A stretch of 64,000 bases of DNA, taken from positions 1,302,001 to 1,366,000 of the forward strand of contig JAUPFL010000002.1 in assembly GCA_030562215.1 (NCBI GenBank), in the 5' to 3' direction. This DNA is from Peribacillus frigoritolerans. Its GTDB lineage: Bacteria; Bacillota; Bacilli; Bacillales; DSM-1321. Each line of letters starts with the position of its first letter. The stretch's first letter is position 1. A program made the position numbers and the translations under genes. Of the stretch, positions 29,029 to 59,862 are shown piece by piece. Under the pieces are notes generated by a model, which was not told the DNA's origin, did no database searches, and worked only from the letters and a program-made list of their open reading frames with translations.

Positions 29029-29184
29029 CCTCTTATCTTCCAGAAAATGAATTCTGGTGGAATTAGCACCGTGCTCTGTGGATTTAATAATCCGGCGGAG
29101 GATCCGCCCCATTTCACAATGGTATTACAGTCGGTTGCTGGGCTTCATAGGGCCTTTATCCCTCAGCCTGCTCTTGATAAGAGT
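29029..29184 (-). promoter_or_regulatory. SAM-I (S-box) riboswitch of mtnK-mtnA
   Basis: On the minus strand: CTCTTATCAAGAG then CAGGCTGAGGGA, GAAGCCCAGCAACC, CACGGTGCTAATTCC and closing GATAAGAG, the conserved S-box core. High SAM should stabilise the aptamer and let the downstream terminator form. An added hairpin GGCGGAT/ATCCGCC-like sits between the second and third core motifs and is shared with the mtnW switch. Confidence 0.95.
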
Positions 29185-31435: not shown

Positions 31436-31592
31436 TTTCTTATTTTGAGCAGGTGGAGGGACTAGCCCTATGAAGCCCAGCAACCGACCGTAATTCCATT
31501 GTAAAATGGGGCGGAATCCTTCCGCCGGATTTTCTTGAAATCCACAAGGCACGGTGCTAATTCTTGCAGCCAATGGGCTGGGAGATAAGAAG
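31436..31592 (+). promoter_or_regulatory. SAM-I (S-box) riboswitch of mtnWXBD
   Basis: TTCTTATTTTGAGC, GGTGGAGGGACTAGCCC, TGAAGCCCAGCAACC, GCACGGTGCTAATTC and GAGATAAGAAG make the conserved four-way junction. The internal stretch is nearly identical to the mtnK S-box on the other strand. Confidence 0.95.
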
Positions 31593-46165: not shown

Positions 46166-47242
46166 TTGACTAAGAAAATAGTATTTACCGGAGGCGGTTC
46201 TGCCGGTCATGTATCTGTTAATGCAGCAATCATCCCGGAATTTTTAAAGCATGATTGGGATGTTACTTATATTGGTTCAAAAAAGGCATTGAAAAAGTAT
46301 CATCGAAACGGAATTTCCCGAGGTCCGTTATGAAACGATTTCCGTTGGGAAATTCCGACGTTATCTATCTGTTGAAAATATGAAAGACCCTTTCCGTGTC
46401 ATAAAAGGGATTTTTGATGCACGAAAAATATTAAAAAAGACCAAGCCCGATTTCATTTTTTCTAAAGGTGGTTTCGTTTCGGTTCCAGTCGTTTTGGCAG
46501 GCAGGATGCTGAGGATTCCGATTGCGATACATGAATCGGATTATACGCCTGGTCTGGCTAATAAGATCGCGATGCCACTTGCATCGAAAATTTTCACTAC
46601 CTTCCAGGAAACGGAAAAAATCTTCCGAAAGAGAAGGCCATGTATCTTGGCGCTGTATTGCGCGATGGGATTTTTACTGGAAACGCTTCTGCTGGAAAGG
46701 CATTTTGTGGATTCACGAATAAAAAACCGGTATTACTCGTTATGGGCGGAAGCCTTGGGGCCGTTAAAATCAATAATTTAATTACAGATAACCTTGATGC
46801 CTTATTAAAGGATTATCAGATTATTCACATTTGCGGGAAGGGAAATGTGAAAACCGAATTGAAACAAAGGGGATATGCTCCTTTTGAATTCGTGCACGAA
46901 GAATTATTCGATCTTTTGGCGGCTGCTGATGTCGTTGTGTCAAGGGCTGGTTCAAATTCTATCTTTGAATTCCTTGGTTTGCAAAAGCCGATGTTGCTTA
47001 TCCCTCTAAGTGCCAATGCATCCCGTGGAGATCAAATCCTGAATGCATCAAGCTTTGAAAAACAGGGTTTTTGTAAAGTCATCCAAGAAGAAGAGCTGAA
47101 TGATCGGATTTTTAATGCTACATTAGCGGATTTATTGAAACAATCGGATGAATATCAAGAGAAAATGCGTCAAAAACGCCCATTCAAAACGGCAGCTGAA
47201 ATGTATGAATTACTGCTTCAAGTAATGGCAGCAAAAAAATAA
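46166..47242 (+). CDS. MurG-like N-acetylglucosaminyltransferase, three frameshifts
   Basis: A glycosyltransferase of the MurG family (adds GlcNAc to lipid I), about 355 residues when repaired. TTG 46166 follows AAGGTGG and gives [20 protein letters not shown], the donor-lipid loop. Missing A residues at about 46282, 46296 and 46626 restore [20 protein letters not shown] and [20 protein letters not shown]. Later marks: [42 protein letters not shown] and [16 protein letters not shown]. It stands outside any cell-division cluster; several Bacillus species carry a second MurG of this kind, so it is probably a paralogue rather than the sole MurG. Confidence 0.85.
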
Positions 47243-48734: not shown

Positions 48735-49286
48735 CTATGCTTCAAGTAACTGCTGTTCGTCATCATCATGCTGTCTAAGGATATGAAAGGTGTATAAATC
48801 TTTAGGGATTTCATACAAATCGTAGATATCTCCTTCATGATTGATCTGATCATAAAGGGATTTTCTTGTTTCGTTGGCATTGACGGCATAGGGAAGCTTT
48901 TCAGCAGCTTTTATGGAGCGGATATTTTTTGCGAATACGCATGAAGACCGTTTCCAAACCGAGCTCGAAAAAAGCTCTTTGAAGAAAGCGTCTTTTGCGA
49001 TGGCATTATATCCTTTTCCATGATAAGGCTTGCCAAGCCATGTGCCTAAGAAACCTGCACCATTTTCAATATCGTATAAAGAAATACAACCGATGGGATT
49101 TTCCCATTCATCCAAGATTGTTCGTGAAATGAGTTGCCCAGCATCTTCGGCTTCGATCGTTTGCTTAGTAATGAAAACATATTCTTCATATGAATCTACC
49201 TTATGGCGCACGAAAGGGAAGACATCTGGATGCGTCATTTGTTCATAAAGAGAAAAACAATCTGTGAAATCTCTCTTTTTTAACAT
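48735..49286 (-). CDS. GNAT family acetyltransferase with a compensated double frameshift
   Basis: A 183-residue acyltransferase. The GNAT core has GFLGTWLGKPYHGKGYNAIA (the acetyl-CoA-binding Q/RxxGxG/A-like segment) and KNIRSIKAAEKLPY. Residues about 108-122 read SSSVWKRSSCVFAK, unlike the family; shifting the frame over plus-strand 48932-48976 gives FELGLETVFMRIRKNIRS, so one missing T (about 48973) and one extra A (about 48930) compensate. The C-terminus IYDLYEIPKDLYTFHIL is normal. Start ATG follows GGAGGG, which a leader hairpin may mask. The substrate is unknown. Confidence 0.78.
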   Translation of the reverse strand: MLKKRDFTDCFSLYEQMTHPDVFPFVRHKVDSYEEYVFITKQTIEAEDAGQLISRTILDEWENPIGCISLYDIENGAGFLGTWLGKPYHGKGYNAIAKDAFFKELFSSSVWKRSSCVFAKNIRSIKAAEKLPYAVNANETRKSLYDQINHEGDIYDLYEIPKDLYTFHILRQHDDDEQQLLEA

Positions 49287-49289
49287 TTC

Positions 49290-49440
49290 CGTCCCTCCGT
49301 TTGAGGGCAGTTCTTATGCGTAGTCGCTGCCCACCCTCGAAATTTTTTAAGTCGTTCATCAAAAAATTTCGGGGTGGGAATCGAACCCACTAGAACCGGA
49401 AACCGGTGGCGCACCATTTGCCTTCCCTATTTTTATTGTC
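49290..49440 (-). promoter_or_regulatory. Structured leader with mutually exclusive hairpins and tRNA-like T-arm
   Basis: Minus-strand order: GGCGCACC-type hairpins with CCGG-TTT-CCGG, a T-arm-like GTGGG-TTCGATT-CCCAC (49374-49390), an 18-pair hairpin CCCACCCCGAAATTTTTT with AAAAAATTTCGAGGGTGGG (49331-49378), GAGGGTGGGCAG with CTGCCCTC (49303-49338), and CCCTC with GAGGG of the ribosome binding site. Neighbouring stems share strands, so they exclude each other in series. This could switch access to the GNAT start. Confidence 0.5.
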
Positions 49441-49613
49441 AGAAAATATGCAAATCTAAAGAACCTTACGAAGGTATAATACTAAAAAAAAACGGTTTGG
49501 GAATAGGTTTTTTGCCTTTTTTTCGTCAAATTTCAACTTTTTTTGAAGGGAGAAATCTTTAGGCAAACGCCTGCATCCTTCCATGAAAAACTGATTTTTC
49601 TCCCCCTTTTTCT

Positions 49614-50396
49614 TTAAAATTCACCTGTAAATTGCATGAATAAAATGATTGCGCCGAGGGCCCATACATAAATGGAGAATATTTTGAGTGAACGCTTTTT
49701 TAAGAAATCGATCATCCATACTACGGCTATATAACCAAAGATTGCTGCTGATAGGGTCCCGACGAATAGTGCAGTGAGTGGAAGCCGTTCTACTTCTCCT
49801 GTAAAGATCGGTTTCATCTGAAATACGATGCCACCCGTAATGGCAGGAATGGAAAGCAAAAAGGAAAAATAGGCTGCGGTGGCCCTATCCAGTTTGCAGA
49901 AGAGGCCTGCGGCTATCGTTAAGCCGGAGCGCGAAAGAGCAGGCATGATGGCAGCAGCTTGGAAGGTACCGATGATCAGCGCATCTTTAATCGAAATTTC
50001 ATTAAGGGATTTGCCGCCTTTTCTTACTCCGTCGGCTACCCATAAGATCAGTCCGGTCGCTAAAAATTCCCAGCCTATGGTCACACCTGTTTTTGAAAGG
50101 CCATCAAACCAATCACCGAGTAAAATGCCGGCAATAACTGCAGGTATCGTCCCAGCAATGAGAAGCAGGGTCATTTTGGAAAAAGGGTTTTTCAAAATGG
50201 CAATTATGTCATTCTTATAGACGACCAATAACGCCAGCAAGGTTCCGATGTGGAGCATGGTATCCAGAAAAATGCCGGCCTCGTCAAGGTGGAAAATATG
50301 CCGTCCTAAATATAAATGTCCAGTGCTTGAAATAGGTAAAAACTCAGTCAAGCCTTGAATGATCCCAAGGATGAAGGCTTGAAATTCATTCAGCAA
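49614..50396 (-). CDS. uppP: Undecaprenyl-diphosphatase UppP/BacA
   Basis: A 260-residue membrane phosphatase that recycles undecaprenyl pyrophosphate and confers bacitracin tolerance. Both active-site motifs are present: GLTEFLPISSTGHLYLG near the N-terminus and MPALSRSGLTIAAGLF later, with (E/Q)xxxE replaced by the usual IQGLTEF context. About eight helices. ATG 50396 at the end of a weak site. The gene sits alone between the GNAT leader and the DUF4870 gene. Intact. Confidence 0.95.
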   Translation of the reverse strand: MLNEFQAFILGIIQGLTEFLPISSTGHLYLGRHIFHLDEAGIFLDTMLHIGTLLALLVVYKNDIIAILKNPFSKMTLLLIAGTIPAVIAGILLGDWFDGLSKTGVTIGWEFLATGLILWVADGVRKGGKSLNEISIKDALIIGTFQAAAIMPALSRSGLTIAAGLFCKLDRATAAYFSFLLSIPAITGGIVFQMKPIFTGEVERLPLTALFVGTLSAAIFGYIAVVWMIDFLKKRSLKIFSIYVWALGAIILFMQFTGEF

Positions 50397-59763: not shown

Positions 59764-59862
59764 ATCTTATCGAGAGAGGTGGAGGGACTGGCCCGAAGAA
59801 ACCTCAGCAACCAGCTTAGGCAAAGGTGCTAAATCCAGCAAGCAGAGCTTGATAGATGAGGA
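59764..59862 (+). promoter_or_regulatory. SAM-I (S-box) riboswitch of yitJ-metH
   Basis: ATCTTATCGAGAG, GGTGGAGGGACTGGCCC, GAAGAAACCTCAGCAACC, AAGGTGCTAAATCC and GATAGATGAG form the canonical compact S-box. It lacks the extra hairpin of the two mtn switches. Confidence 0.96.

Follow-up and report, generated by a model that had tools for sequence, protein, structure and literature searches.

A tRNA-like leader conserved ahead of a GNAT acetyltransferase gene in Bacillaceae is a candidate translational ON switch

The gene of a 183-aa GNAT protein of Peribacillus frigoritolerans is preceded, on the minus strand of the window (the whole 64-kb stretch of DNA that was analysed), by a 148-nt leader at 49434-49287. 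Comparative folding shows the 5' part of this leader as a predicted truncated tRNA cloverleaf, and the segments downstream of it as able to form competing stems, which by comparison are kept before the same gene in many Bacillaceae and relatives. A cis-regulatory function of the leader is, judging by these comparisons, near certain. The leader is probably a translational ON switch of the GNAT gene, OFF by default, with the tRNA-like domain as its putative sensor. The original prediction, made from this DNA, had described serially competing hairpins here and had read them as a translational switch; the observation is confirmed, and the in silico results support the switch interpretation and take it further. 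The leader and its gene are placed as follows.

49287..49434, minus strand: whole leader (tRNA-like domain and expression platform, extending to the GNAT start codon), from folding and comparison
48735..49286, minus strand: regulated gene, GNAT acetyltransferase (Pfam PF13302), from Pfam; fold like RimL, SpeG and other GNATs, with model and pI taken from relatives

Of the tRNA-like domain only the T-arm had been seen before; the sequences compared here make it part of a whole predicted cloverleaf which starts at 49427 and includes an acceptor, a D-arm and an anticodon-like arm.

49371..49427, minus strand: tRNA-like cloverleaf (GGG ... CCC), from RNAalifold unprompted and from pair counts on 21 and 93 cores
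49425..49427, minus strand: acceptor-like strand GGG, with its partner CCC at 49373-49371, from pair counts and RNAalifold; no covariation
49408..49422, minus strand: D-arm-like hairpin GGC-AAATGGTGC-GCC, with GG in the loop as in tRNA, from RNAalifold and 93 cores
49395..49407, minus strand: anticodon-arm-like hairpin ACCGG-TTT-CCGGT, from pair counts; covaries
49374..49390, minus strand: T-arm, composed of GTGGG (49390-49386), TTCGATT (49385-49379) and CCCAC (49378-49374), from RNAalifold and 93 cores

RNAalifold, run without constraint on 21 diverse cores, returned a 3-bp GGG/CCC acceptor, AA, a D-arm GGC/GCC, an anticodon-like arm with a variable loop, four bases and the T-arm GTGGG-TTCGATT-CCCAC. 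Among 93 distinct cores the T-loop TTCGATT and the D-loop GG are each present in 93 and the D-loop AAWTGGTGM in 92, while the junction reads AA in 91 and AAA in two (L192 and L210, whose A-C acceptor pairs in the same count are register errors), and the anticodon-like loop is 2-18 nt long. The anticodon-like arm covaries, one of its pairs being A-T in 78 cores and G-C in 15. At one T-arm pair both bases have changed, from G-C to A-T, in 4 of the 93 cores, and the same two-sided change occurs in the D-arm of a single core, L206; for the acceptor no covariation was found in the 93 cores. In the 21-row alignment 99.7% of cells pair, compared with 98.4% in column shuffles, and two-sided pair changes are not in excess (1 vs 0.9 in shuffles), although this test has weak power because most pairs never vary. 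As the core is nearly invariant and its acceptor does not covary, covariation says little there. No ligand pocket is evident.

Likeness to tRNA was assessed with a covariance model, R1, which was given the cloverleaf as consensus structure and was trained solely on 21 leaders, with no tRNA among them. A loose search of 8 genomes with R1 gave four leaders at 88.9-100.4 bits and 57 other matches at 16-28 bits, and all 26 of these 57 that were fetched overlap a tRNA called by ARAGORN: Gly(UCC) in 13 cases, His in 7, Arg in 2, SeC in 2, Cys in 1 and Gly(CCC) in 1. The leader has in common with tRNA the cloverleaf, the D-loop AATGGT and the T-arm, of which 16 of 17 bases are shared with tRNA-Gly(UCC), and it has the anticodon stem ACCGG/CCGGT in common with one tRNA-Asn. 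It differs from tRNA in its 3-bp acceptor (7 bp in tRNA), in having no CCA, in the 2-18 nt range of its anticodon-like loop and in its location inside an mRNA. ARAGORN found no tRNA in the window, and no Rfam tRNA model matched at gathering score, tRNA-Sec reaching 14.8 bits where the gathering score is 47. Our first reading of tRNA-Gly as the parent was rejected, since the tRNA-Asn of a distant genome (of another class, from the phylum sample) scores higher with R1, 38.8 vs 28.2 bits, and no parent is claimed. On the opposite strand of the window, the frame at 49374-49562 (+) that starts MGIEPTRTG translates the complementary strand of the T-arm, an annotation artefact of a known kind.

After the cloverleaf come, in this order, the GAAATTTTTT/AAAAAATTTC helix, the relay segments S2 (GAGGGTGG) and S3 (CTGCCCTC), and the Shine-Dalgarno (SD) sequence.

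49378-49361 with 49348-49330, minus strand: long stem, CCCACCCCGAAATTTTTT with AAAAAATTTCGAGGGTGGG
49361..49370, minus strand: 5' arm of the A/T-rich helix, GAAATTTTTT, which fits both states; covaries with 49348-49339
49339..49348, minus strand: 3' arm of the A/T-rich helix, AAAAAATTTC, from covariation
49330..49338, minus strand: relay segment S2, GAGGGTGGG, pairing with 49378-49371 (OFF) or 49310-49303 (ON)
49303..49310, minus strand: relay segment S3, CTGCCCTC, pairing with S2 (ON) or the Shine-Dalgarno sequence (OFF)
49338-49331 with 49310-49303, minus strand: S2-S3 stem, GAGGGTGG with CTGCCCTC
49307-49303, minus strand: CCCTC, pairing with GAGGG of the Shine-Dalgarno sequence
49293..49298, minus strand: Shine-Dalgarno sequence GGAGGG, from the sequence

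All four pairings that had been claimed (T-arm, long stem, S2-S3 stem and CCCTC with GAGGG) were found at their minus-strand places. The long stem is present as described, though the MFE structure gives it 20 pairs and one bulge where 18 pairs were first counted, and the GAGGGTGG/CTGCCCTC duplex has 8 pairs, two of them G-U. A 171-nt stretch folds with a z-score of -4.95, and 0 of 200 dinucleotide shuffles folded equally well. The GAAATTTTTT/AAAAAATTTC helix covaries at many pairs, one of which is A-T in 80 and T-A in 25 of 109 platforms (L197 and L213, with a long stem of fewer than 6 pairs, are out of the total of 111, and the 3'-arm anchor is mis-set in several platforms). The original prediction had been staked on conservation and covariation of the leader; the leader is conserved and its long helix covaries. 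The S2-S3 duplex is stronger than the shuffled-linker mean in 95 of 100 leaders and the S3-SD pairing is stronger than the shuffled mean in 89 of them, in a comparison which skipped 9 more leaders (short linker or mis-set anchor) and whose shuffles keep base composition only. In some leaders perfect pairs replace the common wobbles, for example AGGGTAG with CTACCCT in L128 and AGGGCAGG with CCTGCCCT in L130. Family f15 (L213, L214) keeps the cloverleaf with another platform that is without the long stem, and family f49 has a different relay.

The predicted openness of the SD was computed for 124 leaders twice, once with the cloverleaf forced and once with the T-arm strand kept out of it. Openness is higher with the cloverleaf by more than 0.3 in 48 leaders, in none is it lower by as much, and the predicted change is 0.3 or less in the other 76 (a broken pair for L127 in this test is a register error). 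For 60 leaders of diverse GNATs, forcing the cloverleaf lifts mean SD openness from 0.23 to 0.43, compared with 0.31 to 0.30 when the platforms of the same leaders are shuffled (12 shuffles per leader, keeping dinucleotides), and the opening exceeds the leader's own shuffled mean in 52/60 and does not in 8/60. The logic of a translational switch, as first proposed, thus holds in silico for many leaders and not for all, and the direction in which the tRNA-like state is ON is likely on these models. Forming the cloverleaf in the full leader is predicted to cost 7.8 kcal/mol on average for native sequences and 3.0 kcal/mol with shuffled platforms, which indicates that the platform competes with the cloverleaf more than chance sequence does. 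In the window's leader this cost is 13.6 kcal/mol (-45.4 vs -59.0). Many ligands could not pay such a cost at equilibrium, and a kinetic switch would therefore be required. The T-arm is part of the MFE structure of the early transcript in 60/60 leaders, in 55 of them together with the acceptor and D-arm, and of the full leader in 7/60; in the window's leader, lengthened 6 nt at a time, the cloverleaf is the MFE structure of transcripts of 68-98 nt and has gone at 104 nt. An early cloverleaf that is later displaced would be expected of a co-transcriptional choice.

Judging by the predicted energies, the cloverleaf would form first during transcription. Where it persists, GAGGGTGG would pair with CTGCCCTC and leave the Shine-Dalgarno sequence free, which would be the ON state. 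In the OFF state GAGGGTGGG would displace the 5' strands of the acceptor and the T-arm, and CTGCCCTC, released in this way, would mask the Shine-Dalgarno sequence; OFF is predicted to be the more stable state. The ON signal would then be whatever recognises the tRNA-like fold and keeps it in place. By analogy with the yjdF riboswitch, the most likely trigger would be a small molecule linked to the substrate of the GNAT, probably an amine, and a tRNA-binding protein or the ribosome would be the next choice. In silico, on average and with exceptions, the leader has the conserved aptamer-like core and the mutually exclusive platform gating the SD that would make it a candidate translational riboswitch in the wide sense.

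The leader is more conserved than the GNAT gene in blastn comparisons of 13 loci. In two relatives the leader is 100% identical, the GNAT DNA 96-98% and the flanks 87-95%, and in seven relatives the leader is 88-94% and the GNAT DNA 72-78% identical. In the genus sample leader and GNAT were each matched in 34/36 genomes. In a protein scan of named genomes the nearest relative of the window's GNAT was from Peribacillus. The scan gave 33 loci, and the core, read from the sequence, lies upstream in 29 of them; its carriers include Peribacillus, Neobacillus, Anoxybacillus, Thermolongibacillus, Priestia, Siminovitchia and Alkalihalobacillus, as well as Bacillus haynesii, Bacillus glycinifermentans and Bacillus swezeyi. 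The core is missing at L126, a Neobacillus niacini locus with just a remnant of the platform, at L131 (Sporosarcina) and at L137 and L138, both of them partial matches. The carriers that were looked up at NCBI are Bacillaceae of the order Caryophanales. Caryophanales were formerly Bacillales, and our order, class and phylum samples follow GTDB ranks.

In the order sample 349/397 genomes match R1 at E 0.01, a count that takes in tRNA-type matches near E 1e-3. The GNAT is found at E 1e-40 in 81 of 101 genomes of the order, and in 79 of these 81 the leader is matched with an E of 6e-15 or lower, the exceptions being G037 and G039, in which the GNAT is present with no such core upstream. In the 20 of the 101 without the GNAT, no leader match (0/20) is better than E 3e-4; this co-occurrence was read from two match tables compared by eye. 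The class sample gave matches in 34/398 genomes at E 1e-5, 27 in the window's order and 7 in one other family, f49, and the phylum sample in 5/299 at E 1e-6, three of them of the window's order, one of f49 and one a tRNA-Asn. Exactly one match at E 1e-6 was found in each of 50 genomes (50 genera, 43 families), which were picked as positives and therefore speak of copy number and not of frequency. The original prediction had proposed to check if the same GNAT family always follows, and the downstream frame reads as the same GNAT in 125/125 distinct leaders with a start found. That count leaves out L187 and L254, which have no start by the rule used and have the GNAT just downstream; the same rule puts 13 starts one or two codons late and sets that of L192 wrongly. 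The compared sequences are kin, so all these counts are not independent. GNAT copies without the leader core, namely L105 (the second copy in G016), L126, L131, and L273 and L274 from two genomes of the window's family, are natural comparisons for the role of the leader. Phages gave no leader match at E 1e-5. Seven matches of an 18-base pattern in viral contigs were rejected, none having the rest of the core, and plasmid records gave one match, NZ_CP089998.1:647302-647403, on a 690-kb Cytobacillus spongiae replicon filed as plasmid.

Rfam 15 has no family that matches the leader at gathering score. A loose Rfam search (E up to 10, 471 bases around the leader) gave 14 sub-threshold matches, RF01764 not among them, and in the loci of nine relatives, searched at E 0.5, the leader's sole resemblance was to the tmRNA T-arm, seen in three of the nine at 15.5 bits. 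The only gathering-score Rfam matches in the 64-kb window are three SAM riboswitches, at 59764-59862 (+), 29030-29183 (-) and 31437-31591 (+). A c-di-GMP-I riboswitch is found downstream of the GNAT in Thermolongibacillus altinsuensis (L124:2687-2778).

The leader resembles the yjdF (azaaromatic) riboswitch, RF01764, which has a tRNA-like four-way fold with a D-loop/T-loop elbow and activating ligands; there the tRNA-like fold is the ON state and itself raises translation, and the OFF state recruits the T-arm region (PMC9142559, in excerpt). A four-way fold with a conserved D-loop GG and T-loop is also found in the leader, at the level of secondary structure. However, the leader has an AA/AAA junction without the extended purine-rich J1/2 ligand pocket of yjdF, and would reach its OFF state through a relay (S2, S3), whereas in yjdF the T-arm pairs with the Shine-Dalgarno sequence directly. 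R1 found nothing at E up to 10 on 8 loci matched by RF01764, and a relative of this GNAT was absent from the same 8 loci (best E 0.53). The leader would thus work like the yjdF riboswitch but is, by comparison of their sequences, no member of it, because the models mismatch both ways, the purine-rich junction is absent and the OFF mechanism differs. The yjdF riboswitch typically controls yjdF (DUF2992) genes, and some acetyltransferases, left unnamed in the excerpted text, are under its control (PMC9142559), which is a point in favour of membership; a word search of the main text of the yjdF ligand paper PMC4793209 gave no acetyltransferase.

T-box RNAs share with our element that they are leaders in Gram-positive bacteria which involve tRNA, but our leader mimics a tRNA instead of binding one and has no terminator-like site on the minus strand; no Rfam T-box match was found in the window or around the leader. 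GAGGGTGG, as we take it, recalls a T-box sequence. The Gd4v motif, guanidine-IV, is likewise a candidate riboswitch before GNAT genes, but it was tested via transcription termination (PMC9788692, in excerpt for both statements), and no Rfam guanidine riboswitch was found at the leader. A search of titles and abstract openings returned no description of this leader. The main texts of the candidate-RNA surveys that were word-searched, including one from 2010, hold none of the terms acetyltransferase, GNAT and tRNA-like, and in the main text of one further survey acetyltransferase appears only as aceF. A prior mention of the leader may exist, for example in survey supplements.

The protein itself was modelled from a relative's sequence with 75 others by AlphaFold2, which gave a confident model (pLDDT 92.2). 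Its fold matches at Z 16-18 include RimL, SpeG, FdhC, MccE and the aminoglycoside acetyltransferase AAC(6')-Ib, too many for a substrate of the GNAT to be named. No solved structure is related to it by sequence at E 0.001, and no NCBIfam model matches it at E 0.01. Compared with a close relative, the copy in the window is shortened in two homopolymers; the two losses jointly bring the reading back into frame, with a patch of about 16 residues read out of frame. This patch is likely a sequencing error, because the assembly (5.4 Mb in three contigs) is estimated to be 87% complete. At 46380-47242 (+) of the window a MurG-like frame, named from its translation, appears split into two overlapping frames, which again suggests an indel error.

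A transcription start downstream of 49340 would count against the original prediction; the sole promoter-like match lies upstream of the leader, though 0.6 such matches are expected on average in shuffles.

49476..49503, minus strand: promoter-like site TTCCCA-N16-TATTAT, with the -10 at 49481-49476, from consensus match only

Upstream of the core many relatives share an element TATTTYC, about 16 bases, TWGTATKATAC, its -35-like half being unusual as judged by eye. A -10-like match is present upstream of the core in 54/82 leaders, compared with 27/82 when shuffled, with shuffles that keep base composition only.

Several other explanations have to be weighed against the switch as described above, and the odds overlap, because a role of the general tRNA machinery and autoregulation share its architecture and differ in the trigger. 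If the general tRNA machinery (T-loop modification enzymes, ribosomal sites) read the domain, GNAT expression would report the state of translation or of tRNA modification. TTCGATT and the D-loop GG, invariant in 93/93 cores, fit this, and so does the finding that tRNAs placed in cis ahead of a gene raised its translation in vitro 2- to 6.3-fold (PMC9142559, in excerpt). This explanation is nevertheless rather unlikely, and the acceptor/T-arm stack of 8 bp, which is not the 7+5 of tRNA, would make RNase P or RNase Z unlikely readers.

Autoregulation, in which the GNAT would act on tRNA or aminoacyl-tRNA and bind the tRNA-like leader of its own mRNA, is also unlikely. Threonyl-tRNA synthetase binds a tRNA-like leader of its own mRNA (the thrS-type operator). 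Among the leaders examined the element accompanies this GNAT alone, some GNAT toxins acetylate aminoacyl-tRNA (TacT of M. tuberculosis, for example, acts on glycyl-tRNA, according to the literature seen in excerpt), and tRNA-Gly(UCC) gave the best tRNA matches of R1 in 8 genomes of the order (13/26 fetched). That last likeness is weak evidence, however, as the tRNA-Asn of the phylum sample scored higher (38.8 bits). The GNAT proteins are acidic, with a pI of 4.7-6.8 in 82 selected, which argues against this explanation without excluding leader binding; moreover, binding would stabilise the ON state and give positive feedback, and the leader has neither an acceptor end nor a fixed anticodon loop.

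A ligand-free leader, OFF by default and answering temperature, ions or transcription speed, would be in accordance with the predicted dependence of the choice on co-transcriptional order, but the core, its unpaired bases included, is far more conserved than a thermosensor needs, and we regard this explanation as improbable. A functionless relic of a tRNA gene or att site, the alternative which the original prediction had offered as an att-site remnant or relic repeat, has the tRNA-like sequence in its favour and is already contradicted, hence next to impossible, by the lack of a second copy in the window's own genome, one copy in each of the 50 chosen genomes, conservation beyond that of coding sequence, the GNAT following in 125/125 leaders and the covarying platform. 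Transcription attenuation was rejected, as no terminator-like site was found on the minus strand of 49250-49640.

The preferred reading remains the translational switch with a tRNA-like sensor. More tentatively, and with rather less confidence than in the switch itself, it could be seen as a widespread riboswitch class, independent of yjdF, in which the mRNA-embedded cloverleaf would itself be the sensor and the presence of a fold-holder (an amine-type inducer, a tRNA-handling protein or the ribosome) would be read out as translation of the acetyltransferase. If true, this would be a second tRNA-like translational switch beside yjdF, its junction shorter and its platform of a relay type. The leader, carried by 79 of the 81 gene-bearing genomes in the sample, would add a class without a match in Rfam 15. 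The control of translation by a tRNA fold in cis would become testable in tractable bacilli, and the leader would offer a ready assay for an orphan acetyltransferase, namely to find what turns the leader on.
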